NCBI RefSeq assembly: GCF_000294655.1
Contig: NZ_CAHP01000035.1
Location: forward strand, 1 to 38,549
DNA length: 38,549 nucleotides
DNA from: Magnetospirillum molischianum DSM 120
Lineage (GTDB): Bacteria > Pseudomonadota > Alphaproteobacteria > Rhodospirillales > Magnetospirillaceae
Direction: 5' to 3'
Below the pieces are notes generated by a model. That model saw only the letters and a program-made list of their open reading frames with translations, was not told the DNA's origin and did not search any database. The position numbers were made by a program, and so were the translations under genes. This document shows, piece after piece, positions 5,346 through 34,906 of the stretch. The first letter of the stretch is position 1. Every line of letters starts with the position of its first letter.

Positions 5346-6896
5346 TCACTGTTTTGCTCGCACCGCTTCGGCCGCCAGGGCGCGGGCAAAAGTGGGAGAA
5401 TCGCCTAGCAGACGCAAGGCCAGCGCCATGTCCTCGGGCGCATCGGTGCGCCGGGTCGGGGGGCAAAGATCGCGCAGATGGCGACGCAGGTCGGTCTCCT
5501 CCAACCCCACCTGACGCCAGATATCCAGGGTGCGGGCAACCCGGCCCCAATCGCCGCCACGCTCGGTCCCCTTTTGGCCGGGCGAAGTGCACAGAACGGG
5601 AAACACCCCCAACCCATGCAGCGCATAGCCGCTGGGAGCGTGAAAGCGCGACCAAGTTAGGGTGATCTCGCCATCGTTAGGCAGACGGATCACGGTCTGG
5701 ACCGTTCCTTTGCCATACGAATTGGTCCCGATCACCACGGCACGACCGGAATCCTGCAAGGCCGAAGCGAGAATCTCGGCGGACGAGGCCGACCGCCCGT
5801 CGATCAGCACCACGACCGGCAAATCCTCGGCCAGATCGCCGGGGCGCGCGGTCAGAACGGCGTTGGCGGCGGGATTACGTCCGCGAGTCGAAATGATCGG
5901 GCCGTCGGCGATGAACAGGTCTGCAACCGCCACCGCCTTGTCGAGTAATCCGCCTGGATTGCCGCGCAGATCGAGGACCACCCCTTTCAGCCGCGCTCCC
6001 ATTCGTTCGCGGGTCTCGCGCAGCTTGGTTTCCAGACTGCTGGCCGTGCGCTGATTGAAGCTGCTGATACGATAGATCGCGATCGGGCCATCCAACGTCT
6101 CGGTAACGGTTTTCGGGACGATCAGCGACCGTTGCACCTTCGCTTCGACTATCTTCCCGGCTCGGCGCAAGGTCACGATCAGAGCGCTGGCGACCGCACC
6201 GCGCAGGCGGGCAGAGATCTCGGTTCGCTCCAGCCCCCGCACCGGCTTGCCGTCGATCAGAACAATCACGTCGTCGGCCTGCAATCCCGCTCGCGCCGCC
6301 GGAGTGTCTTCGACCACATCGACGATCAACGCCTCGCCCTCGACCAACTCGAAACGAATGCCGATGCCGCCAAACCCATTGCGGCTGGCCCGGTTGTCGC
6401 GGGCCTCGGCCGCCCCGGCATAGCGGGAATACAAGTCGGCGGTGCCCAGAGCGCCTTCGAACACCGCCCGAAACAATCGCTCGACATCGGCGTCGCGCAC
6501 CAGCGGCGACACCTCGCCCGCATCCAACGCCACGCTGATCACCAGCCGCGCCCAGGATTCAACATCGTCGGTGGCGGGGGCGGGATAATCGGCGACCACC
6601 CGTTCGGCCGTGCTCAACCGCACCCGCCCGCCCTGGAAGGCAATGGCGAATTGCGGATCGATGTCGGCCAGCCCACGCATCGCATCGAGCGCGACGGTCG
6701 AGGCCGGAACCTGCTGAAGATGGCGTTCGACAATCGCCGCCAGGCCATAGGCGACAGTTCGTTGCGCTTCGACAACATCCCAACCCGCCTGCGCCGAAAA
6801 CGGCATGAACAAAACTATCGCGACAGCCAAACACCGCCACCCCGCGCGCCGGGTCACCCCCCACAATACGACAGCATAGACGTGGAGCGTGGACAC
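5346..6896 (-). CDS. S41 family C-terminal processing protease
   Basis: A CtpA/Prc-type serine protease acting in the periplasm. A GTG start at 6896 gives 516 residues with an N-terminal signal/anchor (CLAVAIVLFMPFSAQA, about 22-37). The PDZ domain follows (about 170-240, with GIGIRFELVEGEALIVDVVEDTP and GLQADDVIVLIDGKPV). The S41 core has LRGNPGGLLDKAVAVADLF, then SASSAEILASALQD with the nucleophilic Ser, and NSYGKGTVQT with the general-base Lys. This Ser/Lys dyad is diagnostic. It starts 39 bp after the RNase R stop, so the two are probably co-transcribed. AAGGAA lies about 12 bases before the GTG, a rather long spacing, so the exact start is less certain than the identity. Confidence 0.9.
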   Translation of the reverse strand: MSTLHVYAVVLWGVTRRAGWRCLAVAIVLFMPFSAQAGWDVVEAQRTVAYGLAAIVERHLQQVPASTVALDAMRGLADIDPQFAIAFQGGRVRLSTAERVVADYPAPATDDVESWARLVISVALDAGEVSPLVRDADVERLFRAVFEGALGTADLYSRYAGAAEARDNRASRNGFGGIGIRFELVEGEALIVDVVEDTPAARAGLQADDVIVLIDGKPVRGLERTEISARLRGAVASALIVTLRRAGKIVEAKVQRSLIVPKTVTETLDGPIAIYRISSFNQRTASSLETKLRETRERMGARLKGVVLDLRGNPGGLLDKAVAVADLFIADGPIISTRGRNPAANAVLTARPGDLAEDLPVVVLIDGRSASSAEILASALQDSGRAVVIGTNSYGKGTVQTVIRLPNDGEITLTWSRFHAPSGYALHGLGVFPVLCTSPGQKGTERGGDWGRVARTLDIWRQVGLEETDLRRHLRDLCPPTRRTDAPEDMALALRLLGDSPTFARALAAEAVRAKQ

Positions 6897-19645: not shown

Positions 19646-19721
<76 letters not shown>

Positions 19722-19766: not shown

Positions 19767-20258
19767 CAGGTTCGCACAGGGTTCGTAGTCAGGCGAAATT
19801 CACGGTGCCTTTCGGTAACGTGAATAGAGGTTTTGACTGACGGAGCCTTCTCCCTGTCACCCCCTTGAAGATACCCTCCCGCCAGTCGCCCAGCGGGGGA
19901 GGTGCACCACTGTCTTGCCGATGATCCCGTCAAGCCCGCTCAGGGTGTCGAGGGTAATCGGCAAAGCGATGGCGGCTCTGGTCTGGCTTCACACGATCAG
20001 GTCGGCCAACAATCCAGACCTGCGGATGCTTGGTCGCAAGATGTGGCACCGGCTTGAACGCGGATTTCCGAAGGTCGAGCAAGCCGTAGCCGATCTACAT
20101 TTGATCGGTATACGCCACCTCAAAATAGAGGGGGGGGTACGGCGCGTTCCCCCTCGGCCTATCACGCGTCGATCCGGCGTGACCCCACCGACCTGATCAC
20201 CCACCAGAATCTACCCACGGATCGCGCCATTGGCCGGTTGGTATAAACACAGCCGGCA
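19767..20258. other. Gene-free stretch beside the tRNA; possible degraded DNA
   Basis: About 490 bases without a convincing gene. A plus-strand frame (19915-20196) encodes about 93 residues but has no ribosome binding site or recognisable domain. A minus-strand frame between about 19,790 and 20,130 is broken by stops. A hairpin of GAGGGGG/CCCCCTC lies at 20128-20155. The region looks like decayed sequence at the edge of an inserted segment, but I cannot identify an insertion sequence or an attachment repeat. Confidence 0.4.
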
Positions 20259-20735
20259 TCAAGTATGTTCCATCACACTCGGGGAATGAGTCCCCAGGCA
20301 TCTTGGTCCCGGTCCATTTCGCCCGAGTTCATCGCCGGGATTTCTTAATGGGCAGTCTTCAAGCGAGAGGCAGCCGCATCCAATACAGCTGGTGATCTGA
20401 TCGCGCAATTCGGTCAGGCTGACTATTCGTTTTTCGAGCATGTCCTTCCATGAATTGGCAAACCGAGCCCAATCCTCTGCCGTCGCTTCGTGATAATGGG
20501 GCAGATCGGCCACGGCCTCGCGTATCGTGGACAGGGTAATGCCGGTAAGCTGTGCAACACGGATGATGGCGATACGGCGGAGAACCGAGCGGTGATACCG
20601 TCGTTGATTGCCCTCCGTGCGCCAGCCTTGGATCAGTCCCTTGGCTTCGTAAAAGTGGACTGTTGAGACCGCGACACCGCTTCTCTTCGCGACTTCGCCG
20701 ACCGTAAGGTTTGTTTTGATCGTACTGTCGTCCAT
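20259..20735 (-). CDS. soxR: Redox-sensing MerR-family activator SoxR
   Basis: SoxR is a dimeric MerR-type activator whose [2Fe-2S] cluster is oxidised by redox-cycling compounds such as phenazines. The ATG at 20735 gives 158 residues: a winged helix (LTVGEVAKRSGVAVSTVHFYEAKGL, about 10-34), NQRRYHRSVLRRIAIIRVAQ, a dimerisation helix, and the cluster motif with Cys117, Cys120, Cys122 and Cys128 (CIGCGCLSLEDC). This spacing is diagnostic of SoxR. It follows the pump permease by 65 bp on the same strand, so it may be transcribed from the SoxR-box promoter at 25,111-25,142, giving positive feedback. In non-enteric bacteria SoxR usually controls pumps and redox enzymes directly, without SoxS, and no soxS is seen here. 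Confidence 0.95.
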   Translation of the reverse strand: MDDSTIKTNLTVGEVAKRSGVAVSTVHFYEAKGLIQGWRTEGNQRRYHRSVLRRIAIIRVAQLTGITLSTIREAVADLPHYHEATAEDWARFANSWKDMLEKRIVSLTELRDQITSCIGCGCLSLEDCPLRNPGDELGRNGPGPRCLGTHSPSVMEHT

Positions 20736-20800
20736 TCTTAAAACCTCAGCGTATTCGCATTTCCCCAACCGTGAAGATCGTGAGCGCCAGAGCGACACGA

Positions 20801-23800
20801 TCAATCAGTGGAGGCTTCTGGCGGATTGGTGGGTCTGACGTTGGCGAATGCCTGCTCTCGCTCGCTTGTCTTGCCTGGGCGATGGTCCTTGGCGATCAGC
20901 GTGTAGAAGGTGGGCAGTACGAACAGGGTGAACAGCGTACCGATCAGCATTCCCATCACCACGACGATGCCGATGGCAAAGCGGCTGGCGGCACCGGCGC
21001 CTCCCGCAAACAGCAGCGGCACCAGACCGGCGACCATCGCCGCCGTGGTCATCAGCACGGGCCGCATTCGGACTTTCGCCGATTTCAGAATCGCGTCGTG
21101 CCGGTCGAGTCCCTCGCTGTGCTGGATTTCGTTGGCGAAGGCCACCATCAGGATGCCGTGTTTGGAAATCAGCCCGATCAGGGTGACGAGTCCGATCTGG
21201 GTGTAGATGTTGAGCGTCGTGAAGCCGAGATAGAGCGGCAGCAACGCACCGCAGACGGCCAGCGGCACCGTCACCAGGATCACCAGCGGATCGCGAAAGC
21301 TTTCGTACTGTGCCGCGAGAACCAGGAAAATGACGATCAGCGCGAAGCCGAACGAGACGGTCAGGCGATTGCCTTCCTGCACGTACTGCCGACTGTCGGC
21401 CAGCCAGTCGATAGTCACGCCGGGGCCGCTTGGCTGGGCTTCCATGAACGCCACGGCTTGCCCCATCGTCACGCCGGGTTTCAGCACGCCCGAGAGGGTC
21501 GCCGCATTCATCTGATTGAATTGCGGCAATCGATTCGCCTGCGGCACGACATCGATCTTGATGATGCTGGACAGCGGCATCATCGCGCCCGATTGCGCCC
21601 GGACGTAGAAGCGGCCCAGCGTTTCCGGCGTCAGGCGATCCTGCTGGAGAACCTGCGGGATCACGTCATAGGATCTGTCGTGATAGTTGAAACGATTGAC
21701 GTAATTCTCTCCGACCAGCGTGGCGAGGGTATCGGCGATTTCCTGCATGGTGATGCCCACCATCCCCGCCTTGGCGGTGTCGATGGTGATCCGGGCGGAC
21801 GGGCTATCGAAAGCGAGGTCGCTATCGACAAAGACAAACAAGCCGCTTCGCCATGCCGCCGCTTTCAGGGCGGCCATGTCCTGATAGATAACGCTGAAGT
21901 CGGCGGGGGAGCGCAGCACCATCTGAAAGGGCAATCCTCCGCTGGATGCGGGCAGTGCCGTGGGCTGGAACGGCGTCACCGAAGCGCCGTGTACGCCATT
22001 GGCCTTCCCATAAAGCAGTTTCTGGATATCGGTGGCGCTGCGGGTGCGTTCGTGCCATTCCTTGAGGACGATGCCGCCAAAGGCTCTGTTCTGGCCGTCG
22101 GTTCCGTCAACGAACCAACTGCTGGAAAATTCGGGGATCTCCGTGAAGATGCGGTCCACTTCGCGGGTCGCGACCGAAGTGTAGTCGATACTGGCATATT
22201 GAGGCGCGCGGACTGCCGTGTAGACATAGCCCTGGTCCTCCTGAGGGGCCAGTTCGCGCCGCGATCCCATGAACAACACCACGATTGCCACCAACATGGC
22301 CGTGGCGACCAGCAGGACGACGGGGCGTATCGACAACGTCCAGTCGAGCGCATGACCATAGCCGGAAGACAGTCTTTCGAAACGATGCTCGACGGCTTTG
22401 GCGAAACGGCCTTCGGTGACTTTGCGGCTGAGAAGCAGCGAACTCATCATTGGCGACAGAGTGAGTGCGATGATCCCCGACACCACCACCGAACCGGCCA
22501 GCGTGAACGCGAACTCGCGGAACAGACTGCCCGTCAGGCCGCCCATCATTCCGATCGGCGCATAGACGGCGGCCAGCGTGATCGTCATCGCGATCACCGC
22601 ACCGATAATTTCGCGTGCACCGACCAGGGACGCTTCGATCGGGGATAACCCATCTTCGATATGGCGGTGGATGTTCTCGACCACGACGATCGCATCATCG
22701 ACCACCAATCCAATCGCCAGCACCATTGCCAGGAGCGTCAGCAGGTTCAAGGAGAAGCCGCACATCAGCATCAGCGCCGCCGAGCCGATCAGCGACAGCG
22801 GGATGGTGACAACCGGGATCACAACCGCGCGCGGCGAACCAAGGAACAGGAAGATGATGATCACGACGATCACAACCGCTTCGATCAGCGTCTGCTTGAC
22901 CTCCGCAATCGAGGCATTGACGAAATGCGCGACGTCGAACGTACTCTTCACGATCAGCCCTGGCGGTGCCGACTTCTGAATCTGCGGAATCAGCTCCATG
23001 GCCGCATCGACGATATCCAGCGGGTTGCCGTCCGGTGTCGGCGTGAGGGCGATGAAGACGCCCTTGTGGCCCGAGGCACGCGCACCGCTATTGTAATTCT
23101 GCCCCCCCAATTCCAGCGTCGCGACATCGCTCAACCGGACCAATCCGTCCGAACCGGTCTTGATCACCATGTTGCGGAAATCGTCGATGTTCGCGATATC
23201 GGTCGATGCGGTGATGTTGGTAACGGTCGCGCTATCCTTCAACTGACCGGGGGCCGCCTGGACATTATTGGCTTTGAGAGCGGCGGCAATGTCGCCGGCG
23301 GTGAGGCTGCGGGCGGCGAGTCGGACGGGATCGATCCACACCCGCATCGAAAGGGTCTGCCCGCCCAGAATATCGGCCGCAGCCACCCCCTTGATCGAGG
23401 TGAACAATGGCTGCGCAACGCGGGTGGCGAAGTCGGTGATCTGGGGAATCGCCAGCGTATCGCTGGTGAACGAGATGTACTGAACCGCCGAAGCGCCGTC
23501 GGTCACCTTTTCGATGACCGGATCGTAAGCCCCTTGGGGAAGGCGGTATTTGACCTGTTGTACCTTGGCCAGAATCTCGGTCATCGTGCGGTCGGCATCG
23601 GCGTTGATCACCAGCTTCGCCTTGATCTGGCTTCGGCCCATCGTCGATATCGAGGTCAGATATTCGATTCCGCTCGCCGTCGCGACCGACTGAGCGATGG
23701 GTGTGGTGACAAAGCCCTGCATGACGTCTTGGGTTGCACCAGGAAAGCTGGTGTTGACCGTGATCGTCGCACTTTGCAGATTCGGATATTGCCGCACCGG

Positions 23801-23896
23801 CAATGAGAAAAGCGCACTCAGGCCCGCCAGCAGAATCAGCAGGCTGACGACAACAGACAGGATCGGTCGGCGGATGAACAGATCGGTGAACCGCAT
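20801..23896 (-). CDS. RND efflux permease, MexI-like
   Basis: A 1031-residue inner-membrane proton-driven pump of the hydrophobe/amphiphile RND family. The start MRFTDLFIRRPILSVVVSLLIL at 23896 (AGAGG upstream) is typical; the open frame before it belongs to the fusion-protein gene in another frame. Twelve helices and two large periplasmic loops are evident. The proton-relay pair is in GLVVDDAIVVVENIHRH and the TM10 lysine in GLISKHGILMVAFANEI. From memory the N-terminal third is closest to Pseudomonas MexI, the pump component that handles phenazines with MexG, MexH and OpmD. It starts 10 bp after the fusion-protein gene. No outer-membrane channel gene is nearby, so a TolC-like protein encoded elsewhere must be used. 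Confidence 0.95.
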   Translation of the reverse strand: MRFTDLFIRRPILSVVVSLLILLAGLSALFSLPVRQYPNLQSATITVNTSFPGATQDVMQGFVTTPIAQSVATASGIEYLTSISTMGRSQIKAKLVINADADRTMTEILAKVQQVKYRLPQGAYDPVIEKVTDGASAVQYISFTSDTLAIPQITDFATRVAQPLFTSIKGVAAADILGGQTLSMRVWIDPVRLAARSLTAGDIAAALKANNVQAAPGQLKDSATVTNITASTDIANIDDFRNMVIKTGSDGLVRLSDVATLELGGQNYNSGARASGHKGVFIALTPTPDGNPLDIVDAAMELIPQIQKSAPPGLIVKSTFDVAHFVNASIAEVKQTLIEAVVIVVIIIFLFLGSPRAVVIPVVTIPLSLIGSAALMLMCGFSLNLLTLLAMVLAIGLVVDDAIVVVENIHRHIEDGLSPIEASLVGAREIIGAVIAMTITLAAVYAPIGMMGGLTGSLFREFAFTLAGSVVVSGIIALTLSPMMSSLLLSRKVTEGRFAKAVEHRFERLSSGYGHALDWTLSIRPVVLLVATAMLVAIVVLFMGSRRELAPQEDQGYVYTAVRAPQYASIDYTSVATREVDRIFTEIPEFSSSWFVDGTDGQNRAFGGIVLKEWHERTRSATDIQKLLYGKANGVHGASVTPFQPTALPASSGGLPFQMVLRSPADFSVIYQDMAALKAAAWRSGLFVFVDSDLAFDSPSARITIDTAKAGMVGITMQEIADTLATLVGENYVNRFNYHDRSYDVIPQVLQQDRLTPETLGRFYVRAQSGAMMPLSSIIKIDVVPQANRLPQFNQMNAATLSGVLKPGVTMGQAVAFMEAQPSGPGVTIDWLADSRQYVQEGNRLTVSFGFALIVIFLVLAAQYESFRDPLVILVTVPLAVCGALLPLYLGFTTLNIYTQIGLVTLIGLISKHGILMVAFANEIQHSEGLDRHDAILKSAKVRMRPVLMTTAAMVAGLVPLLFAGGAGAASRFAIGIVVVMGMLIGTLFTLFVLPTFYTLIAKDHRPGKTSEREQAFANVRPTNPPEASTD

Positions 23897-23906
23897 GATG
23901 ATCCTC

Positions 23907-25019
23907 TCAGGGCGACGGACTTGATACGACCGTCGGCTGGGCGATGCGGACTGCCGCGCCCGGCTGGACGCGGAGCTGGCCGCTGGTGATAACGCTGTCG
24001 CCAGGGGCAAGCCCTGTTTCGATGACGATACGGTCGCCGTGACGCTGCCCGGTAATCACCGGCAGAAGCTCGGCCTTGCCATTTCGGACGACAAAGACGC
24101 TATCACCCGATGCGCTGGTCTGGACGGCGGTCGTCGGGACCAGAATCGTCTCCGGGCGCATCGGCTGCATGATCCCTGCGGTTACATAAAGGCCAGGGCG
24201 CAGGATTTGATTGGGATTGGCGAGTGTCGCCTGAACGCTGATATTGCGCGTGTCCTGTCCGACCTTGGGTTCGATCGCATTGATACGGGCTGGAAAGAGC
24301 CGATCCGGGTACGCGTCGGTGCGAACCGTGACATCGCCGCCAAGGCGCAGCTTCGACAGATCCTGTTGCGGCACGGTGAAGTTTACGTAGAGCGGATCGA
24401 GCGCTGTCAATGTCGCCAAAGGATCGCCCGCATTGACATATTGGCCCAGATTGACCCGTCTGATCCCGATCAGACCCGCGAACGGTGCCCGGATCGCTTT
24501 CTGGGCAATGCGTGCGTCGATTCCCTGAATAGCGGCGTTGGCCTGTGTCAGCTCGGCCTCGCGCTGTTGTAAAAGCTGCTTCGGTTCGGCGCCAATCGGG
24601 ACAAGCCCAACCGAACGCTCATGCTGTAACCGCGCAAATTGGGCACGCGCTACGGCTTGCGCACGATCCGCCCGTTCCGGCGCGTCGTAGAGCTGTACGA
24701 GCGGAGTCCCGGCCGTAACCGACGACCCTGCTTCGAAATGGATCGCAACCACGCGACCCGCGACTTCTGGGGCCAGGGTTACCTCGCGTACCGCCTGTAG
24801 CGAGCCGGTCGCTTCGAGCGATTGAGGCAGCGTTTCCGGCTGAACCGTCTGGGCTGAGACTTCCACCGGCGGGGGGGCATGGCCGCCCGCATTCGTTGAA
24901 AGCCGGGCACCGCGCCAAAGGTAAATCCCCGTAAAGATCGCGAGAAGGATGAGAGTCGCGAAAACCAACGGCACACGGTACCGCCGAGGCTTAGGCAACC
25001 GTTCCAAGGTGTCGGGCAT
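23907..25019 (-). CDS. RND membrane fusion protein, MexH-like
   Basis: The periplasmic adaptor that joins the RND permease to an outer-membrane channel. With the ATG at 25019 (GGAG eight bases upstream) the product has 370 residues. An N-terminal anchor (VPLVFATLILLAIFTGIYLW, about 14-33) comes first. The lipoyl/barrel-sandwich half-motifs follow (EVTLAPEVAGRVVAIHFEAGSSV and IRAPFAGLIGIRRVNLGQYV), with a short helical hairpin between them rich in Ala, Gln and Arg, then the beta-barrel. An alternative ATG at 25058 lacks a good ribosome binding site. It is the first gene behind the SoxR box and is followed by the permease after 10 bp. Confidence 0.94.
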   Translation of the reverse strand: MPDTLERLPKPRRYRVPLVFATLILLAIFTGIYLWRGARLSTNAGGHAPPPVEVSAQTVQPETLPQSLEATGSLQAVREVTLAPEVAGRVVAIHFEAGSSVTAGTPLVQLYDAPERADRAQAVARAQFARLQHERSVGLVPIGAEPKQLLQQREAELTQANAAIQGIDARIAQKAIRAPFAGLIGIRRVNLGQYVNAGDPLATLTALDPLYVNFTVPQQDLSKLRLGGDVTVRTDAYPDRLFPARINAIEPKVGQDTRNISVQATLANPNQILRPGLYVTAGIMQPMRPETILVPTTAVQTSASGDSVFVVRNGKAELLPVITGQRHGDRIVIETGLAPGDSVITSGQLRVQPGAAVRIAQPTVVSSPSP

Positions 25020-25110
25020 GTCGGCTCCAGATCGGATTTGCGGGCATTCCCAGCCCATGAGAGTGACTCATGGCGCAGCCGTGGGGGGCTTGGGCGCGCA
25101 GGCCGACTCC

Positions 25111-25142
25111 ATCCTTACAACCTCAACATTAGTTGAGGTCAA
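25111..25142 (-). promoter_or_regulatory. SoxR box and stretched promoter of the efflux operon
   Basis: CCTCAACATTAGTTGAGG (25121-25138) matches the classic SoxR operator CCTCAA-N6-TTGAGG, with arms ACCTCAAC/GTTGAGGT. On the minus strand TTGACC (25142-25137) is the -35 and TAAGGAT (25117-25111) the -10, separated by 19 bp. The over-long spacer is the hallmark of MerR/SoxR-controlled promoters, where activation untwists the DNA. It lies about 90 bp ahead of the membrane fusion protein start. Confidence 0.92.
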
Positions 25143-25230
25143 GAGCCTTAATGTCATAAATGGTTGGGGGTGACGCAAAGCACAGCGTTACCGCCGTGGC
25201 GAATACAACAGGTGGCGACGGTTGTTCTGA

Positions 25231-25269
25231 CCGTCAAGATGGCTTGGATCATCTCGGCCATCTTGACGG
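25231..25269 (-). terminator. 13-bp inverted repeat after phzG
   Basis: CCGTCAAGATGGC and GCCATCTTGACGG are perfect complements with a 13-base loop. The repeat lies 22 bp beyond the phzG stop and ahead of the efflux promoter. No T-run follows on the minus strand. It is probably the 3' end of the phz transcript; an operator role is possible. Confidence 0.5.
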
Positions 25270-25291
25270 CAGGTTGCATGACAATTGGGCC

Positions 25292-25927
25292 TTACGGCTG
25301 TAAACGGCGGGCTTTCCACACATCGCCGTCGCGGTCATACCGCAAGCGTTCATGAAGCCGCTCGGTGCCGTTGCTCCAGAACTCAATCGATGTGAGACGA
25401 AGCTCGAACACGCAATAGCTTGGCGGGCGTGGCAAGGGGCCATCGTTTTTTGCCAGGAGCCGGGCTTCGGCCAGCAATGCCTCGATATCCAGCAAGTCCT
25501 CGCTTTGCCGTGAAACGGTTGTCATCGGGTGGGTGAGATACGAGCGCGCCATCCAAAGGGCATCCGCCTTGCTGTCGGGGAGACGTGCGGCAACGCCGTT
25601 AAGACTGATCTGCTGGCACGTCTCACGCCAGTACAGAACACCTGAGCAAAAGGGATTCTGCGCGAGATCTCGGCCCTTCTGACTTCCGGCATGCGTGGAA
25701 AACAACACGCCATTTTCGGAGATTTCATTAATGACGACAATTCGTGTCGATGGGTGGCTGTTGTGATCGACGGTGGCCAAGGCCAGCGCCTTGGGTTCGC
25801 GGACATAGCTTTCGGCTTTTTCAAACCAAGCGCGAAGAAGATCGATTGGATTGTCGGGCGGTGCCAAGAATTCTGGAAAAGGGATTTCGATCATGCCAGT
25901 GAGCGATTCCGACATATTCAGTCCCAT
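25292..25927 (-). CDS. phzG: Phenazine biosynthesis flavin oxidase PhzG
   Basis: PhzG is an FMN enzyme of the pyridoxamine-phosphate oxidase fold that oxidises late tricyclic intermediates to the aromatic phenazine. With the ATG at 25927 (GGAG eight bases upstream) it has 211 residues, close to known Phz[24 protein letters not shown] (about 43-65) and [19 protein letters not shown] form the FMN-binding sheet, and RLHERLRYD...WKARRLQP is the PNPOx-type C-terminus. A genuine pyridoxine oxidase (PdxH) would look similar, but its position 26 bp after phzF makes PhzG much more likely. It is the last biosynthetic gene of the cluster. Confidence 0.92.
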
Positions 25928-25953
25928 TGTTAGTCTCCTGACAGATTTATTGA

Positions 25954-26790
25954 TCAAACGAAAGCGATGCACTCTGCGAAAGGAACGCCGTTCCCGGAGA
26001 CCTCCACCTCCGTTACCCACTCATCGTTGCCTTTGATGCGGGCATACATCCGGGATGGGCGGCCAATCTCGACGCCTTGAAGAATCTCGATCTGGTCACC
26101 GTAGGAAATTTGTCCGTGACGCGCCAAATGGATGGCAAGAGGACCGGCGGCGGAGCCGGTTGCGGCATCCTCCACCACTCCGTAGGCGGGTGAGAACATG
26201 CGGGTGCGCCAATTCAACCCGGCTCCGGCAAAGCAATTTACGGCGACATCACGGAAGTTCGATAGGGCGCGGTGGTCGGGATGAAGCGCCGACAGCGCCG
26301 CAATACTCTCTAGCCCGACGAACACATGTCGCGGGCCATTGCGGTAAATTTCGATCGGAAACGTCGATGACGACACACCAATCGCGGCGAGCAAATCATC
26401 CGGTTGATCGAACACTTCCCAAATGGGAACCGGCTGTCGCATTTTGCAAGCGATTACTTTACCTTCCTCCCGCTGAAGCTCGAATGGTACATTTCCCATT
26501 TGTGTTTCGATGTGTAATTTAGGCTTTTCGGTCAGGGCGCCAAGCGCGATTGCCGTGCCCAAGAGGGGGTGTCCCGCGAACGGCAATTCATTCACCGGCG
26601 TGAAAATACGAACCCACCAGTCACCGCCATTGCGCGGCTTCATGACAAAGGTCGTTTCCGACAGGTTCATTTCTCGCGCGATGCTTTGCATGCGTTCACT
26701 TGATAAATCGTCGCTATCAAAGAACACCGCCACGGGATTTCCCTTCAGCGGTTCAGTCGCGAACGCATCAATCACAATATAGCGGCGCAT
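25954..26790 (-). CDS. phzF: Phenazine biosynthesis isomerase PhzF
   Basis: PhzF isomerises trans-2,3-dihydro-3-hydroxyanthranilate to the reactive aminoketone that dimerises into the phenazine skeleton. The product has 278 residues, the usual size, and with ATG 26790 the catalytic residues fall at their textbook numbers: Glu45 (NLSETTF), His74 ([10 protein letters not shown]) and Asp208 ([12 protein letters not shown]). GNPVAVF at 17-23 is also typical. These agreements confirm both the start and the function, since PhzF-like proteins of other roles are common but lack this context. GGGAAGG precedes the ATG. The first 23 bases overlap the end of phzE, so translation is likely coupled. Confidence 0.96.
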
Positions 26791-28696
26791 CAACCTTCCC
26801 TTTCTCCCGAAACGTTTTATAGGTCAGGGCATGACGCAGCAGAGCCGCGATGATACGAGGCCCATCCTGAGTAAGAACAGATTCAGGATGAAATTGTATC
26901 GACGCAAAACCAGGCCCTCGGAGGGCATGCACTTCCCCCGTATTCTGGTCGCGGCTGATATCAACCACGCCGATATTATCATTCTCGAGGAAGTCACGGC
27001 CGCTCTGTGCAGCGAATGTATTGTAGAACCCGACATTCTCTTCGGCGCCGAACAGGCCGATCGATTTTTGAACGCCTTGGTTGGGAACCTTTCGACGTTG
27101 CAGGTCCAGGCCAAGGCACAAGCTGAGCACCTGATGGCTCAGGCAGACCGCAAGAAAAGGCCGACGATCGGAAAGTAAAGAGCGGATCGTTCGATGAAGA
27201 AAACTGATTTTCGGGTGGCCGATATCCGTTGGGTCTCCCGGCCCAGGTCCCATGATGACAAGATCGTTGTCGTCAAAGGATAATTTTTCGCGGAAGCTGC
27301 GGACGTCCACGATCAATCCCAAAGACTGTAATTGTTTGGCGAACATCATCGTGAAGGAGTCTTCGGCATCCACGATTATTGCTTTGCAACCGTATAGGTC
27401 GTCCTCGGTACGCTGACGCTCCTTCGGGCCGCTCAGCCAGAAACTTGAAATAGGCGCATTCCGACTTTCCAAAGCGGAAAGAACGCGGGGATGTGTGGCA
27501 AAGCGGGCTCGGCTCTGGCATTTCAAAGCGGCAATCAGTCCCATCGCTTTGGCGCGTGTTTCAGCGGCTTCGCTCATGGGATCAGAATCGCGCACGATCG
27601 TCGAACCTACGGCGATCCGCATCTGTCCCGTGGCGCTGATATCCGCGGTGCGGATCAATATTGCCGAATCGAGGGAACGTCCGCCGGCGATGTCTCGTCC
27701 AATCAGCGCCGCCACTCCACTATAATAGGCACGACCCTGTGGCTCATAGCGACGGATCACACGGCATGCGCTTTCCAATGGGCTGCCCGTGACGGTGGGA
27801 GCAAACAAAGTTTCCCGAAGGATGTCGCGCACATCTCGGTATGTCAGCCCTTCAATGAGATACTCGGTATGAGCAAGGTGCGACATTTCTTTGAGGTGTG
27901 GCCCAAGAACTCGCCCGCCATCTTCGCAAAGGCGGGACATCATTTTAAGTTCTTCATCCACAACCATATAAAGCTCATTGGATTCCTTTTGGTTTTCAAG
28001 GAACTCCATGACCTCGTTCAGGTTTGGGCCAGAGGGCGGATAACGATACGTCCCACTGATCGGATTCATCACCGCGAGATTTTCCTGCACGCTGATGTGT
28101 CGTTCTGGTGACGCACCAACAAAGGTTCGCGTGCCAGTGTGTATGATAAATGTCCAGTAGGCTCCTCTCTCCGCATTTAGCAGGCACCGGAAGAAAGAGA
28201 GCGCATTCGTCAGCGTATAACCTTCAATTTCGGCCATGAATGTTCGCTTGATGACGAAGTTTGATCCTTCGCCGGAGCCGATTTCTTTGCAAATTACATC
28301 TTTAGCGATCGATGTATAATCTTGATCGTCAAGATCAAAATGTTCGCCGGTGATGTTGATTTTATCGTTCGGCAATAGATTCAGGGCATCGTTGAGATTG
28401 ATCAAATCCTGGTCGATGATTTCAAGCGCGAGAAGGGGGGCGCCATCGTCCACCACGTCAAAGCCGCGTTCGACAATCTGTCGATAGGGGATCACGACGA
28501 GAAGTTCGTGATGCGGCCCGCCATGCGACGGCCCCGGGAGGGGGAGATCGACGAGGCTGGATGGTTCGGCCATCTTGCCAACAATGACATCGATCATCCC
28601 GCCACTATTTTCCTCGGCTCGGTAGAGAAGCGCGAATGGCTGCGGAGATTCTGATAAGATACGCCGCAGCAAGACGTCAGATGTTTCCTTCATCAT
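26768..28696 (-). CDS. phzE: 2-amino-2-deoxyisochorismate synthase PhzE
   Basis: PhzE converts chorismate and glutamine to 2-amino-2-desoxyisochorismate, the committed step of phenazine synthesis. The 642 residues fuse an anthranilate-synthase-like chorismate domain (about 1-400) to a class I glutamine amidotransferase domain (about 430-630). The first has [40 protein letters not shown] and [10 protein letters not shown]. The second has [11 protein letters not shown], the nucleophile in [14 protein letters not shown] and the His/Glu pair in QFHPESVL. The ATG at 28696 overlaps the phzD stop (ATGATG, sharing ATGA). AT-rich codons are visibly more common than in the flanking core genes. Confidence 0.96.
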
Positions 28697-29313
28697 AAGG
28701 CCTCATCGGTAGTAATGACCATGGCGCAACGTCTCGCAGCATATTCCATCGCCATCCAGTGATCTTTCTGACTGAAATCAGCGATGGCATCGGCGACTAA
28801 AAAGGGCTGGATATCATTCGAGTATGCGTCAACTGTCGAAATCAGAACCCCGATGTGGGCATACACTCCGCACAGGATGATCTGGTCCCGACCCGCTGCT
28901 CGCATTCGTTCGAGTAAATCTGAGTGAAAGAAAGCGCTATAGCGCCACTTTGTCAGTAACCAGTCATCTCGCCGTGGCCTGAGTTCTTCGATGATCTCGC
29001 GATCGGCCGGGCTTGCTTGCATGCCCGGTCCCCAGAAATCTTTGAGCAGGCCGCGCTGTTCATTGGTCATGTTGCCGGGTTGGGCGGTATAGGCAACCTG
29101 GACCCCTTGTTCCACGCATTTCTGTAGTAAACGGGCGGCATTGCCGACGAGTTCTGCCCGTAAACTCTCGGGAAGAGGCCGCAAGAAGTAATGCTGCATG
29201 TCATGCACAAGGAGGACTGAACGACGAGGATCTGGAATCCATTTCGCTCGATTGGCCGGCAAGTCATTGAGCTTTGGCAGTGAATACGCTTCGATGGTGG
29301 GGATAGCGTTCAT
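28693..29313 (-). CDS. phzD: Phenazine biosynthesis isochorismatase PhzD
   Basis: PhzD hydrolyses 2-amino-2-desoxyisochorismate to trans-2,3-dihydro-3-hydroxyanthranilate and pyruvate. The 206-residue protein carries Asp38 ([17 protein letters not shown]) and Lys122 ([13 protein letters not shown]) exactly at the numbers known for PhzD. CGVYAHIG replaces the nucleophilic cysteine of ordinary cysteine hydrolases of this fold, as expected for PhzD and EntB-type isochorismatases. GGAGA precedes the ATG. In Pseudomonas, phzC lies between phzB and phzD; here that place is a 164-bp gap with a long palindrome. The stop overlaps the phzE start. Confidence 0.96.
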
Positions 29314-29356
29314 CGCGACAATCTCCGGTCAATAGATTGAAATAATCAGACTCCCT

Positions 29357-29384
29357 ATTCAGACTGATGATCATCAGTCTGAAT
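29357..29384. promoter_or_regulatory. Perfect 28-bp palindrome between phzAB and phzD
   Basis: A perfect palindrome made of ATTCAGACTGATGA and its complement, centred on GATC. A further half-site, AATCAGACT (29344-29352), lies next to it. It stands 44 bp before the phzD start. It could be an operator for a dimeric regulator or an intercistronic RNA hairpin. The regulator is not identifiable. Confidence 0.7.
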
Positions 29385-29477
29385 TTTGGACGTGCTTATG
29401 CTTATCCGCGTTAATGTTTCGCAGAGAAGGTGATTGATTCTTCCAAGGCACGCCGATTTTTCAGGAATTTGACCTGA

Positions 29478-30488
29478 TTACGTCGGAATACCTTCGCGTT
29501 TAACTTCTGGGACAGGAATGCCAAGCGCACGCAACTGCTGGCAGACGTTCATGAACTCACGGTTACGAACAATCTTTCCGTTATCGAGTTCAAATGAGTG
29601 GAGGAAGTGGTTCTCGTAATATCCTTCTGGATATCCGGGAAACAGGATCTTCCCGTGACCGTCGCATTCTACCCAAAAATGATTGGGGTCATCAGTTCCA
29701 AATATCTTAATATTGTACCATTCCCAATCGGGGAAGCACTTCAATGACCATACCGCATGCTCTGCGAGTTTATCTTTTCCTTTTATTACGATCGGCAATC
29801 CTGTATCTGTGGTCCACAGGCCGCCACAACCATCATCGACAAAAAGTTCGTGTCTCTTGAGGCGGTCTTGTCCCTTTGTGTTCATATATTTCTCGACTGT
29901 AATACGGTTCAATTCCCGTATTTTTTCAGAGTCTCCGGGTATTTTAGCCGTGTTTACGCTGTTCATTCTACTGCCCCCCGTCTCAAAAGGAACATTTTCC
30001 CATACGGGAACGTTCGTGCGGTTTATTGTTGGGAACTTCATGCCCAAAGAACGCATCTTCTGTGAAACGTCCATGAATTCCCGAACACTTTTTATCTTTC
30101 CAAAATTAAGTTCAAAAGAATGAATATAATGAATATTGCAGTGGATTTCCTTAAAACCGGCTTTTTTTATAGTTCCTTGCCCGTCGCTTTCAACTAAAAA
30201 GTAATCATCAAATTGTGTCTCAAAAATTCTTACGTTTTTCCATTCCCAATCTGGAAAGTATTCCTCAAGCCAGATGCCGAGCTTGGCCAGCCTCTCGTGC
30301 CCCTGAAGAATGAGAGGCGTACCCGTCGTTGTCGTCCAATTACCGCACGAGCCATTCTCTGAAAATAGAGTGTGACGAAGCAGGCGATCCCTGCCCTTCA
30401 TATTCATGTAGCACTCTACAGCAGACCTATTGATGGATCTGAGTTCCACTTCTTTTTTATTTGATACAGCCTCTTCCTGTTTTTTCAT
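29478..30488 (-). CDS. PhzA-PhzB fusion protein (tandem NTF2-like domains)
   Basis: Two PhzA/B-type domains of the NTF2/SnoaL fold joined in one 336-residue frame. PhzA/B promotes condensation of two PhzF products into the tricycle. Domain 2 (residues 175-336) is extremely like Pseudomonas PhzB (DPNHFWVECDGHGK, REFMNV, EGIPT end) and keeps the catalytic histidine (AEHAVWSL, His244) and glutamate (REFMN, Glu311). Domain 1 (1-174) resembles PhzA and has Leu70 (AKLGIW) where the histidine should be. An internal ATG at 29966, behind purine-rich GGGGGGCAGTAGA, would by itself give a 162-residue PhzB, the normal length, so the fusion looks like loss of the phzA stop. The gene is strikingly AT-rich (19 of 60 G+C in 30121-30180). 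Confidence 0.93.
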   Translation of the reverse strand: MKKQEEAVSNKKEVELRSINRSAVECYMNMKGRDRLLRHTLFSENGSCGNWTTTTGTPLILQGHERLAKLGIWLEEYFPDWEWKNVRIFETQFDDYFLVESDGQGTIKKAGFKEIHCNIHYIHSFELNFGKIKSVREFMDVSQKMRSLGMKFPTINRTNVPVWENVPFETGGSRMNSVNTAKIPGDSEKIRELNRITVEKYMNTKGQDRLKRHELFVDDGCGGLWTTDTGLPIVIKGKDKLAEHAVWSLKCFPDWEWYNIKIFGTDDPNHFWVECDGHGKILFPGYPEGYYENHFLHSFELDNGKIVRNREFMNVCQQLRALGIPVPEVKREGIPT

Positions 30489-33028: not shown

Positions 33029-33418
33029 ATGCTTGAAACCTTCGAGACCGTTGCCAAAGCTGTTGCCGATCCAACCCGCATCCGCATTCTGAAGGTGCTG
33101 GAAGGCGGCGAATTGTGTGTGTGTCAGATTACCGCAGTGCTGGATCTTGCGCCTGCCACCGTATCCAAACATCTGGCGGCGCTGAAGGTCGCCGGACTGC
33201 TCCAGCAGCGCCGGGATGGCAAGTGGATCTATTACCGGCTCGCCGAACGCGACCTTAATCCCTACGCCCGTGCATTCCTGGCTTTGGTTGCAACCGCGCT
33301 CGACGACGATCAGACCATTGCCGTTGATGCCGAAGCCCTGGCTCGGGTTTCTGCGGCTGACCTCGCTGTGCTCTGTGAGCGGGCGCGGGCGACTTTTGTG
33401 CCCGAGGAAAAACCATGA
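33029..33418 (+). CDS. arsR: Arsenic-responsive repressor ArsR
   Basis: A winged-helix ArsR-family repressor of 129 residues that senses trivalent arsenic. VADPTRIRILKVL, the DNA-recognition helix region APATVSKHLAALKVAGLLQ and the wing RRDGKWIYYRLA are typical. Cys30 and Cys32 in ELCVCQI form the arsenic site of the ELCVCDL type. It is the first gene of the operon and its last codons overlap the arsC start as ATGA. A near-perfect operator lies just upstream, indicating autoregulation. The ribosome binding site is poor (GAGAGTGATG), which may keep repressor levels low. Confidence 0.93.
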   Translation: MLETFETVAKAVADPTRIRILKVLEGGELCVCQITAVLDLAPATVSKHLAALKVAGLLQQRRDGKWIYYRLAERDLNPYARAFLALVATALDDDQTIAVDAEALARVSAADLAVLCERARATFVPEEKP

Positions 33419-33873
33419 CCGACAAAATCACCACCGTCCTGGTCCTGTGTACTGGCAACAGCGCCCGCTCTGTGCTGGCCGAAGTCCTGATCAACGCTTT
33501 GGGGGAGGGACGGTGGCGGGCATTCAGCGCCGGCAGCCACCCCGCCGGGGCGGTTAATCCGCTCACGCTGGCGGTGCTGGCGGAGAAGGGGCATTCGGTC
33601 GAGGGCTTGAGATCCAAATCCTGGGACGAATTCGCCGATCCCGATGCGCCCCGGATCGATCTGATCATCACTGTTTGCGACAATGCGGCGGGCGAGATGT
33701 GCCCGATCTGGCCGGGTCGTCCCTCGAAAATCCATGTCGGTTTTCCCGATCCGGCGGCGGCGACCGGCACCGATTCTGAGCGGCTGGCCATTTTCCGTGA
33801 GGTCTACGGCCAGATCGAAGCAAAAATCCGCCGCTTGATCGCGTTGGGGCCCGAGCGAGCAGGAGAGGTGTGA
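33415..33873 (+). CDS. arsC: Arsenate reductase, LMW phosphatase type
   Basis: Reduces arsenate to arsenite, probably with thioredoxin. The 152-residue protein has the phosphatase-type P-loop CTGNSAR (Cys12 to Arg18), and the resolving cysteines Cys88 and Cys96 in TVCDNAAGEMCPIWPG, then FPDPAAATG. These three cysteines carry out the disulfide cascade known from Bacillus and Staphylococcus ArsC. It is coupled to arsR by ATGA and followed by the efflux gene after 4 bp, so its arsenite product is handed to ACR3. Confidence 0.95.
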   Translation: MTDKITTVLVLCTGNSARSVLAEVLINALGEGRWRAFSAGSHPAGAVNPLTLAVLAEKGHSVEGLRSKSWDEFADPDAPRIDLIITVCDNAAGEMCPIWPGRPSKIHVGFPDPAAATGTDSERLAIFREVYGQIEAKIRRLIALGPERAGEV

Positions 33874-33877
33874 CGCC

Positions 33878-34906
33878 ATGAATCTGTTCGAACGGTTTCT
33901 GACCCTATGGGTTGGGCTGTGCATCATCGCCGGGGTGGCTCTGGGACATTTTTTCCCGGCACTGTTCCATGCGGTCGGTGGGATGGAGATCGCAAAGGTC
34001 AATCTGCCCGTCGCCGGTCTGATCTGGCTGATGATCATCCCGATGCTGCTGAAAATCGATTTCGGCGCGCTGACGCGGGTTCGCGAGCAGTGGAAGGGGA
34101 TCGGGGTCACCCTGTTCATCAACTGGGCGGTTAAGCCGTTCTCGATGGCGTTACTGGGCTGGGTGTTCATTAGTCATCTGTTCCAGCCCTATCTGCCGCC
34201 CGCGCAGATCGACAGCTATATCGCCGGGCTGATTTTGCTGGCTGCCGCCCCCTGTACCGCGATGGTGTTTGTGTGGTCGAATCTGTGCAAGGGTGAGCCG
34301 CATTTTACTCTATCCCAGGTGGCGCTGAACGACCTGATCATGGTGTTTGCCTTTGCGCCTCTGGTCGGGCTGTTGCTGGGGCTGTCGGCGATCACGGTGC
34401 CGTGGGACACGTTGCTGATCTCGGTCGGGCTTTATATCGTCGTCCCGGTGATCGTGGCGCAGATCTGGCGACGGACGTTGCTAGCGCATTCTCCGCAGGC
34501 TCTAGCTGCGACCCTGGCGAAATTGGGGCCGCTGTCTCTGGTGGCGTTGTTGGCCACCCTGGTTCTGCTGTTCGGGTTCCAGGGCGAGCAAATCATCGCC
34601 CAGCCTCTGGTGATTTTGATGCTGGCGGTACCGATCACCATCCAGGTCTATTTCAATAGTGGACTGGCATATTGGCTGAACCGGCGTTTTGGCGTCGCCC
34701 ATTGTGTTGCCGGGCCATCGGCGCTGATCGGTGCCAGTAATTTCTTCGAACTGGCTGTTGCCGCCGCGATATCCTTGTTCGGCTTCGAGTCAGGCGCGGC
34801 GCTTGCCACCGTCGTCGGTGTCCTGATCGAGGTGCCGGTGATGCTGTCGGTGGTCAAAATCGTCAATGCCAGCAAGGGTTGGTACGACGCTGGACGAACA
34901 TCATGA
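33878..34906 (+). CDS. Arsenite efflux permease, ACR3 family
   Basis: A 342-residue inner-membrane carrier of the ACR3 (BASS superfamily) type, with about ten helices, that expels arsenite. The conserved cysteine in LAAAPCTAMVFVWSNL (about 128) and the GASNFFELAVAAAISLFG segment (about 285) are diagnostic and separate it from the unrelated ArsB family. The third gene of the operon; GGAGAGG lies just before its ATG. Together with arsC it gives resistance to arsenate and arsenite. No arsA, arsD or arsH is seen after it. Confidence 0.95.
   Translation: MNLFERFLTLWVGLCIIAGVALGHFFPALFHAVGGMEIAKVNLPVAGLIWLMIIPMLLKIDFGALTRVREQWKGIGVTLFINWAVKPFSMALLGWVFISHLFQPYLPPAQIDSYIAGLILLAAAPCTAMVFVWSNLCKGEPHFTLSQVALNDLIMVFAFAPLVGLLLGLSAITVPWDTLLISVGLYIVVPVIVAQIWRRTLLAHSPQALAATLAKLGPLSLVALLATLVLLFGFQGEQIIAQPLVILMLAVPITIQVYFNSGLAYWLNRRFGVAHCVAGPSALIGASNFFELAVAAAISLFGFESGAALATVVGVLIEVPVMLSVVKIVNASKGWYDAGRTS

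Follow-up and report, generated by a model that had tools for sequence, protein, structure and literature searches.

Results

The contig NZ_CAHP01000035.1 of Magnetospirillum molischianum DSM 120, analysed over its whole 38,549 nucleotides (the window), carries a block of phenazine (phz), efflux and redox-sensor genes on its minus strand at positions 20259–30488 (Table 1). In order of transcription these are a fused phzA–phzB, phzD, phzE, phzF, phzG, an RND adaptor, an RND permease and soxR. A gap of 272 bp separates phzG from the adaptor gene, which is read from the same strand. An initial annotation of this alphaproteobacterial DNA had described core phz genes next to soxR and a pump with a SoxR box. 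All of these are indeed present and co-directional; the block measures 10.2 kb where nine had been given. The same annotation listed phzA and phzB, and both genes are there, as one fused frame and not as separate genes.

The phenazine operon

The core genes phzA/B, phzD, phzE, phzF and phzG lie together as full-length open frames with key residues intact. In a PhzB–D–E–F–G tree (FastTree, midpoint root; built from the 67 of 85 loci with a complete set of the five proteins, 18 being left out), the window groups with Pseudomonas aeruginosa PA7 (support 0.997) inside the Pseudomonas clade (0.999), and Roseospira falls outside. Overall identity is 73.9% to PA7, with 67–83% for the individual PhzB, D, E, F and G proteins, and 60.0% to Roseospira.

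The first half of the fused protein bears the PhzA signature, with leucine replacing both His73 and Ser77, and the second half has the PhzB residues. The structure of P. aeruginosa PhzB2 (3ff0) matches the fused protein with an E value of 3.3e-94. Leucine occupies the His73 position in the window and in 19 of 19 compared PhzA frames from Pseudomonas-type clusters and Roseospira. Pseudomonas-type clusters have a PhzA paralogue without His73 in addition to phzB, and both signature and clade fit this type. Most PhzA frames of the relatives terminate within two residues after the last proline; in the window the codon following this place is TGG, and the frame continues across 36 nt of spacer, including a G6 run, to the phzB ATG at 29966. 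Conversion of a stop codon to TGG by one substitution would be a simpler origin for the fusion than a one-base change in the G6 run. Judging from the internal start, a separate PhzB may be made besides the fused protein. Two PhzA/B copies or a double frame occur in 32 of 90 loci, 21 of which hold adjacent pairs of the Pseudomonas/Roseospira kind (two from the same Roseospira contig). One of these 21, the PA7 phzA–phzB (L025 9425–10492), is also one open frame, and since its spacer differs from that of the window, the two fusions look independent. The fused frame is read from one assembly of the species, and a sequencing error is possible.

The initial annotation also reported phzC, an outer-membrane channel and decorating enzymes as missing, which holds across the block and the scanned open reading frames (ORFs) of the window. 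No phzC remnant was found in the phzB–phzD gap, the only place searched (best tblastx pair E 0.012, antisense frames at the phzD start). This gap folds with a z of −3.86, and the 18-nt core of its palindrome is present, among 207 loci, only in two loci of the M. molischianum genome itself. Outside the block, a subset of 18 window ORFs (10 of them at E 1e-10) gave no Pfam match for methyltransferase, flavin monooxygenase or asparagine synthase. There is no outer-membrane channel gene in the block, and OEP-domain matches number 20 in the genome and none in the window. By analogy with known producers, the operon should yield phenazine-1-carboxylic acid (PCA), the pseudomonad product, or phenazine-1,6-dicarboxylic acid (PDC), which the available text of Dar et al. 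(PMC7591250) assigns to most other producers.

The absence of phzC, the joined phzA–phzB and the G+C content of the phzA and phzB halves (43–45%) might instead point to a decaying cluster without phenazine output, in which phzC and the phzA stop have been lost. We regard such decay as very improbable. Every frame is open over its full length, and the residues that we take to be catalytic (PhzD D38 and K122; PhzF E45, H74 and D208; PhzB H73, S77 and E140) are intact in PhzD, PhzF and the PhzB half. In addition, Roseospira marina likewise lacks phzC between phzB and phzD, and PA7 shares the single open frame.

The soxR–pump module

The pump has a different set of relatives. In a 16-row RND tree that includes plasmid relatives, the window permease and that of the sister genome G035 group with Novosphingobium, Burkholderia and Acidovorax pumps (97/100), and PA7 MexI groups with a Xenorhabdus pump (100/100). 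The Novosphingobium, Burkholderia and Acidovorax permeases are 67–69% identical to that of the window, compared with 57% for PA7, and are the nearest sampled outside the genus. The permease scores below the cut-off for all 16 NCBIfam models listed for it; PhzG and SoxR pass the curated NCBI equivalog cut-offs. The two pump genes have a G+C content of 61–63%, the phz genes 43–56% and soxR 56%; the three flanking genes on the left have 61–66% and the three on the right 59–60%. At the level of ORFs of at least 100 residues, the stretch 20259–25292 shows no mexG-like gene and has no space left for an outer-membrane gene.

In G035, the soxR–RND–adaptor DNA corresponds to window positions 20291–25250 at about 98% identity, and its flanks have no match. 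No PF03284 (PhzA/B) match occurs anywhere in the G035 genome. Elsewhere in the two genomes, compared stretches share 85.4%, 89.4%, 94.3% and 95.9% identity, a small yardstick in which the last stretch overlaps the third. Because the module exceeds all of these, it has probably been shared sideways recently. The plasmid of Novosphingobium sp. RL4 (L204) and G035 (L155) hold the same soxR, adaptor and permease genes as the window (permease 69% and 99% identical, respectively), but neither locus has a phz match, and in RL4 soxR is divergent and there is no SoxR-box match. Between its soxR and permease genes, G035 also carries an inverted-end insert of about 300 nt (L155 ~6316–6639) that the window lacks.

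The initial annotation had read production, sensing and export as physically one module. As a description of the locus this observation is sound; as an inherited unit it is too strong, given a soxR–RND–adaptor set in G035 without a PF03284 match and different nearest sampled relatives for phz and pump.

SoxR and the pump promoter

SoxR contains the 2Fe-2S cysteine motif C-x2-C-x-C-x5-C, as identified by eye, and proteins above the SoxR cut-off occur in 3 of 55 genomes of the family. The pattern CCTCAA-N6-TTGAGG, searched at one mismatch or fewer, has a single match in the window, exact, at 25121–25138, where 0.07 would be expected; at least one match arose in 7 of 100 shuffles. The box overlaps a TTGACC element that lies 19 nt before a weak −10 element (spacing by eye). 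Because the box, TTGACC and 19-nt spacing are as in PA7, SoxR probably controls the pump; the window −10 looks weaker by eye. Terminator and promoter scans of the block returned counts close to the shuffle level. The sole match to anti-phage models was a weak one, to SoxR.

Phenazine loci elsewhere

We compared the window proteins with 91 phz loci (L014–L104, E 1e-5; some are short at contig ends). None has a SoxR match, and adaptor and permease are found together in one, that of PA7. The sample takes in the best 80 of 207 PhzA/B places, and L019, L020 and L030 are the contig of one cluster. The initial annotation described phz, soxR and pump as scattered in P. aeruginosa, but in PA7 a MexH/MexI-like pair (38% and 57% identical to the window adaptor and permease) has an exact SoxR box upstream of the adaptor, CCTCAACTTAAGTTGAGG, with the same CCTCAAC/GTTGAGG arms, and about 3 kb separate the end of its permease gene from phzA, which follows on the same strand. 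We presume this pump to be mexGHI-opmD. PA7 differs from the window in that the pump lies upstream of phz, a phzC-sized gap separates phzB from phzD, and no soxR match is found in the 20-kb phz locus, to which the soxR search of PA7 was confined.

Roseospira marina DSM 15113 has the same order as the window (phzA plus phzB–D–E–F–G), although its phzA and phzB are separate. The stretches of it that were compared have no soxR or RND match, and other transporter-like genes adjoin (by eye). A Roseospira-type cluster (L019 7541–13109) has no phzC, a divergent phzA and transporter-like neighbours. In Lysobacter antibioticus, the RND pump LexABC confers protection on a phenazine-producing host, whose phenazine induces it, but according to the consulted part of PMC7927275 it lies far from the phz cluster and next to a LysR-type regulator. 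On a plasmid of Xenorhabdus sp. TH1 (L207), a MexI-group pump adjoins an annotated methyltransferase, and PhzA/B is found elsewhere on the plasmid.

Reaction-centre genes (PF00124) were found in 3 of 17 searched genomes of the genus, and their presence in the M. molischianum genome identifies the host as an anoxygenic phototroph. At E 0.001, PF03284 was detected in 1 of 55 genomes of the family (this one), 3 of 297 of the order, 3 of 385 of the class and 5 of 398 of the phylum, M. molischianum being included each time and the counts containing weak matches (one in the order, two in the class, one in the phylum). This bears out the rarity that the initial annotation had claimed outside the usual groups. 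A contig profile scan confirmed 207 places, the best 80 of which belong to Pseudomonas, actinomycetes and Roseospira. PhzA/B also occurs in 24 plasmid records, four of them from Rhizobium, and a PhzE on an Agrobacterium plasmid is 48% identical. Taken with the low census, these plasmid matches indicate that alphaproteobacterial phz genes are rare, yet not unknown. What is unusual here is soxR itself beside phz, the phototrophic host and the phzA–phzB fusion. PhzE was absent from the phage records (E 1e-50) and viral contigs searched. The record CP124645, 5.8 kb from P. aeruginosa, contains unannotated phz-like DNA. Titles and abstract openings of the literature on phenazines in phototrophs and alphaproteobacteria yielded no description of the locus.

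Neighbouring genes

An arsenic-resistance-like set (33029–34906) adjoins the block and comprises an arsR-family regulator, a low-molecular-weight phosphatase family protein and an SBF-family transporter. On the other side, aroA (EPSP synthase, PF00275; 17590–18939) lies about 1.3 kb from the end of soxR; it feeds chorismate synthesis, and its position is probably a coincidence. A candidate mobile-element protein in 19837–20196 was rejected, as it has no Pfam match.

Table 1 Features of the phenazine–efflux block and its surroundings (window coordinates).
Feature	Position	Strand	Basis and remarks
phzA–phzB, fused, 336 residues	29478..30488	-	two PF03284 matches, 5.4e-57 and 6.3e-90; PhzB2 structure match
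Putative internal phzB start	29966..29979	-	Shine-Dalgarno-like G6 run at 29974–29979; in-frame ATG, A at 29966; from sequence, function predicted
Perfect 28-nt palindrome, phzB–phzD gap	29357..29384		site where Pseudomonas clusters hold phzC
phzD, isochorismatase family	28693..29313	-	PF00857; 78% identical to PA7 PhzD
phzE, chorismate-binding and glutamine amidotransferase	26768..28696	-	PF00425, PF00117; 71% identical to PA7
phzF, isomerase	25954..26790	-	PF02567, TIGR00654 above cut-off; 76% identical to PA7
phzG, flavin mononucleotide-dependent oxidase	25292..25927	-	NF038138, 314 bits against a cut-off of 270; 68% identical to PA7
Inverted repeat between phzG and pump promoter, 13-nt arms and 13-nt loop	25231..25269		G035 homology ends in the loop, at 25250
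SoxR box CCTCAACTAATGTTGAGG, pump promoter	25121..25138	-	exact pattern match
RND periplasmic adaptor (MFP)	23907..25019	-	TIGR01730 above cut-off
RND permease	20801..23896	-	PF00873
soxR	20259..20735	-	TIGR01950, 212 bits against a cut-off of 116.9; G035 homology stops at 20291, in the last codons
DNA common with sister genome G035, about 98%	20291..25250		two pieces, 97.9% over 467 and 98.1% over 4505 bases
tRNA-Ala (GGC), adjoining the block	19646..19721	+	no second 3′-end copy in the window

Discussion

The different nearest relatives of phz and pump, and a sister genome with the pump and no PhzA/B match, lead us to favour, with some reserve, a composite origin: two parts, both imported, joined in an anoxygenic phototroph. 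The first part would be a pseudomonad-type phenazine operon without phzC, with phzA and phzB in one frame, that converts chorismate from the host shikimate pathway to PCA and perhaps PDC. The second would be a self-contained soxR–adaptor–permease module, mobile between related species and placed directly behind phzG. Oxidised SoxR would activate the pump from its box, and the pump, joined to a host TolC-type channel such as the OEP-domain matches may provide, would expel redox-cycling compounds; among these, the phenazine made by the adjoining operon is the likeliest local candidate. It is plausible, but unproven, that this product also induces its exporter.

Several observations weigh against this composite reading. 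An RND tree of 30 rows, with fewer relatives, placed the window pump beside MexI (100/99), and the 16-row tree does not fix how the window pump group joins the MexI group. The search for phzD to phzG in G035 covered 40 kb around the pump. A simple empty insertion site was not found in the sister genomes, the flanks lying on different contigs in G035 and G036, and an attachment repeat at the tRNA-Ala was rejected, as the window holds no repeat of its 3′ end at up to three mismatches. The cluster lacks phzC, unlike the phzA/BCDEFG that, in the available text of Dar et al. (PMC7591250), all producer genomes carry, yet similar phzC copies are described there as common among non-producers. No second SoxR box was found in the window, and thus none upstream of phz. 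The pattern has no match in the Novosphingobium, Burkholderia and Acidovorax loci, so that the box is not constant in this pump group. The inducer is the weak point of the proposed scheme. Beside synthetic redox cyclers, the activators of SoxR or mexGHI-opmD named in the consulted parts of PMC9272787, PMC8466533 and PMC7927275 are pyocyanin and 5-methyl-PCA. Both natural inducers are methylated phenazines; the block showed no methyltransferase, a search for decorating enzymes in the remaining host genome not having been made. An undecorated carboxyphenazine may be a poor inducer. Finally, the near copies of the pump stand without phz, in G035 and within the 19-kb locus of Novosphingobium RL4, and nothing ties the window pump to phenazine.

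The first tree also bears on the possibility that the block is one self-protecting module, inherited whole from an ancestor with phz beside a MexHI-like pump. In agreement with such descent, PA7 has its MexHI-like pump near phz, with the same SoxR-box arms, and is the nearest relative of the window phz genes. However, the Novosphingobium, Burkholderia and Acidovorax pumps are closer and group with that of the window in the tree with plasmid relatives, the gene order is unlike that of PA7, pump and phz differ in G+C content, and the module stands in a sister genome without a PhzA/B match. Inheritance as one module is thereby weakened, and we consider it improbable.

A stronger competitor is that phz and the soxR pump are chance neighbours in the same foreign stretch, with no working link, and that the pump acts on outside redox cyclers. 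The G035 module at 98% identity without PhzA/B, the RL4 pump with divergent soxR and no phz, and the lack of a box upstream of phz all agree with this. The short same-strand distance between phzG and the adaptor gene argues against it, as does the MexI-type pump of another group near phz in PA7, which suggests that the pairing arose more than once. We consider chance neighbourhood possible but unlikely.

Under the composite reading, a phz operon and a SoxR pump whose origins look separate have come to adjoin in a phototroph, a new combination of systems of known kinds. A bolder extension, which we hold to be unlikely, is that the phototroph uses the imported phenazine as a redox shuttle or electron sink and has recruited a SoxR-governed pump for its export independently of P. 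aeruginosa. Coupling of synthesis, sensing and efflux would then be convergent, and the fusion would make PhzA and PhzB an obligate pair.

Phenazine research centres on pseudomonads and actinomycetes. Here, the host of the operon is an anoxygenic phototroph, and the adjoining redox sensor and pump seem to be of different origin. The locus would serve as a natural test case for two questions: whether acquisition of a SoxR-controlled exporter recurs among producers, and whether a phototroph can balance its redox state with a phenazine. A ready natural control exists in the sister species, which has the pump and gave no PhzA/B match.

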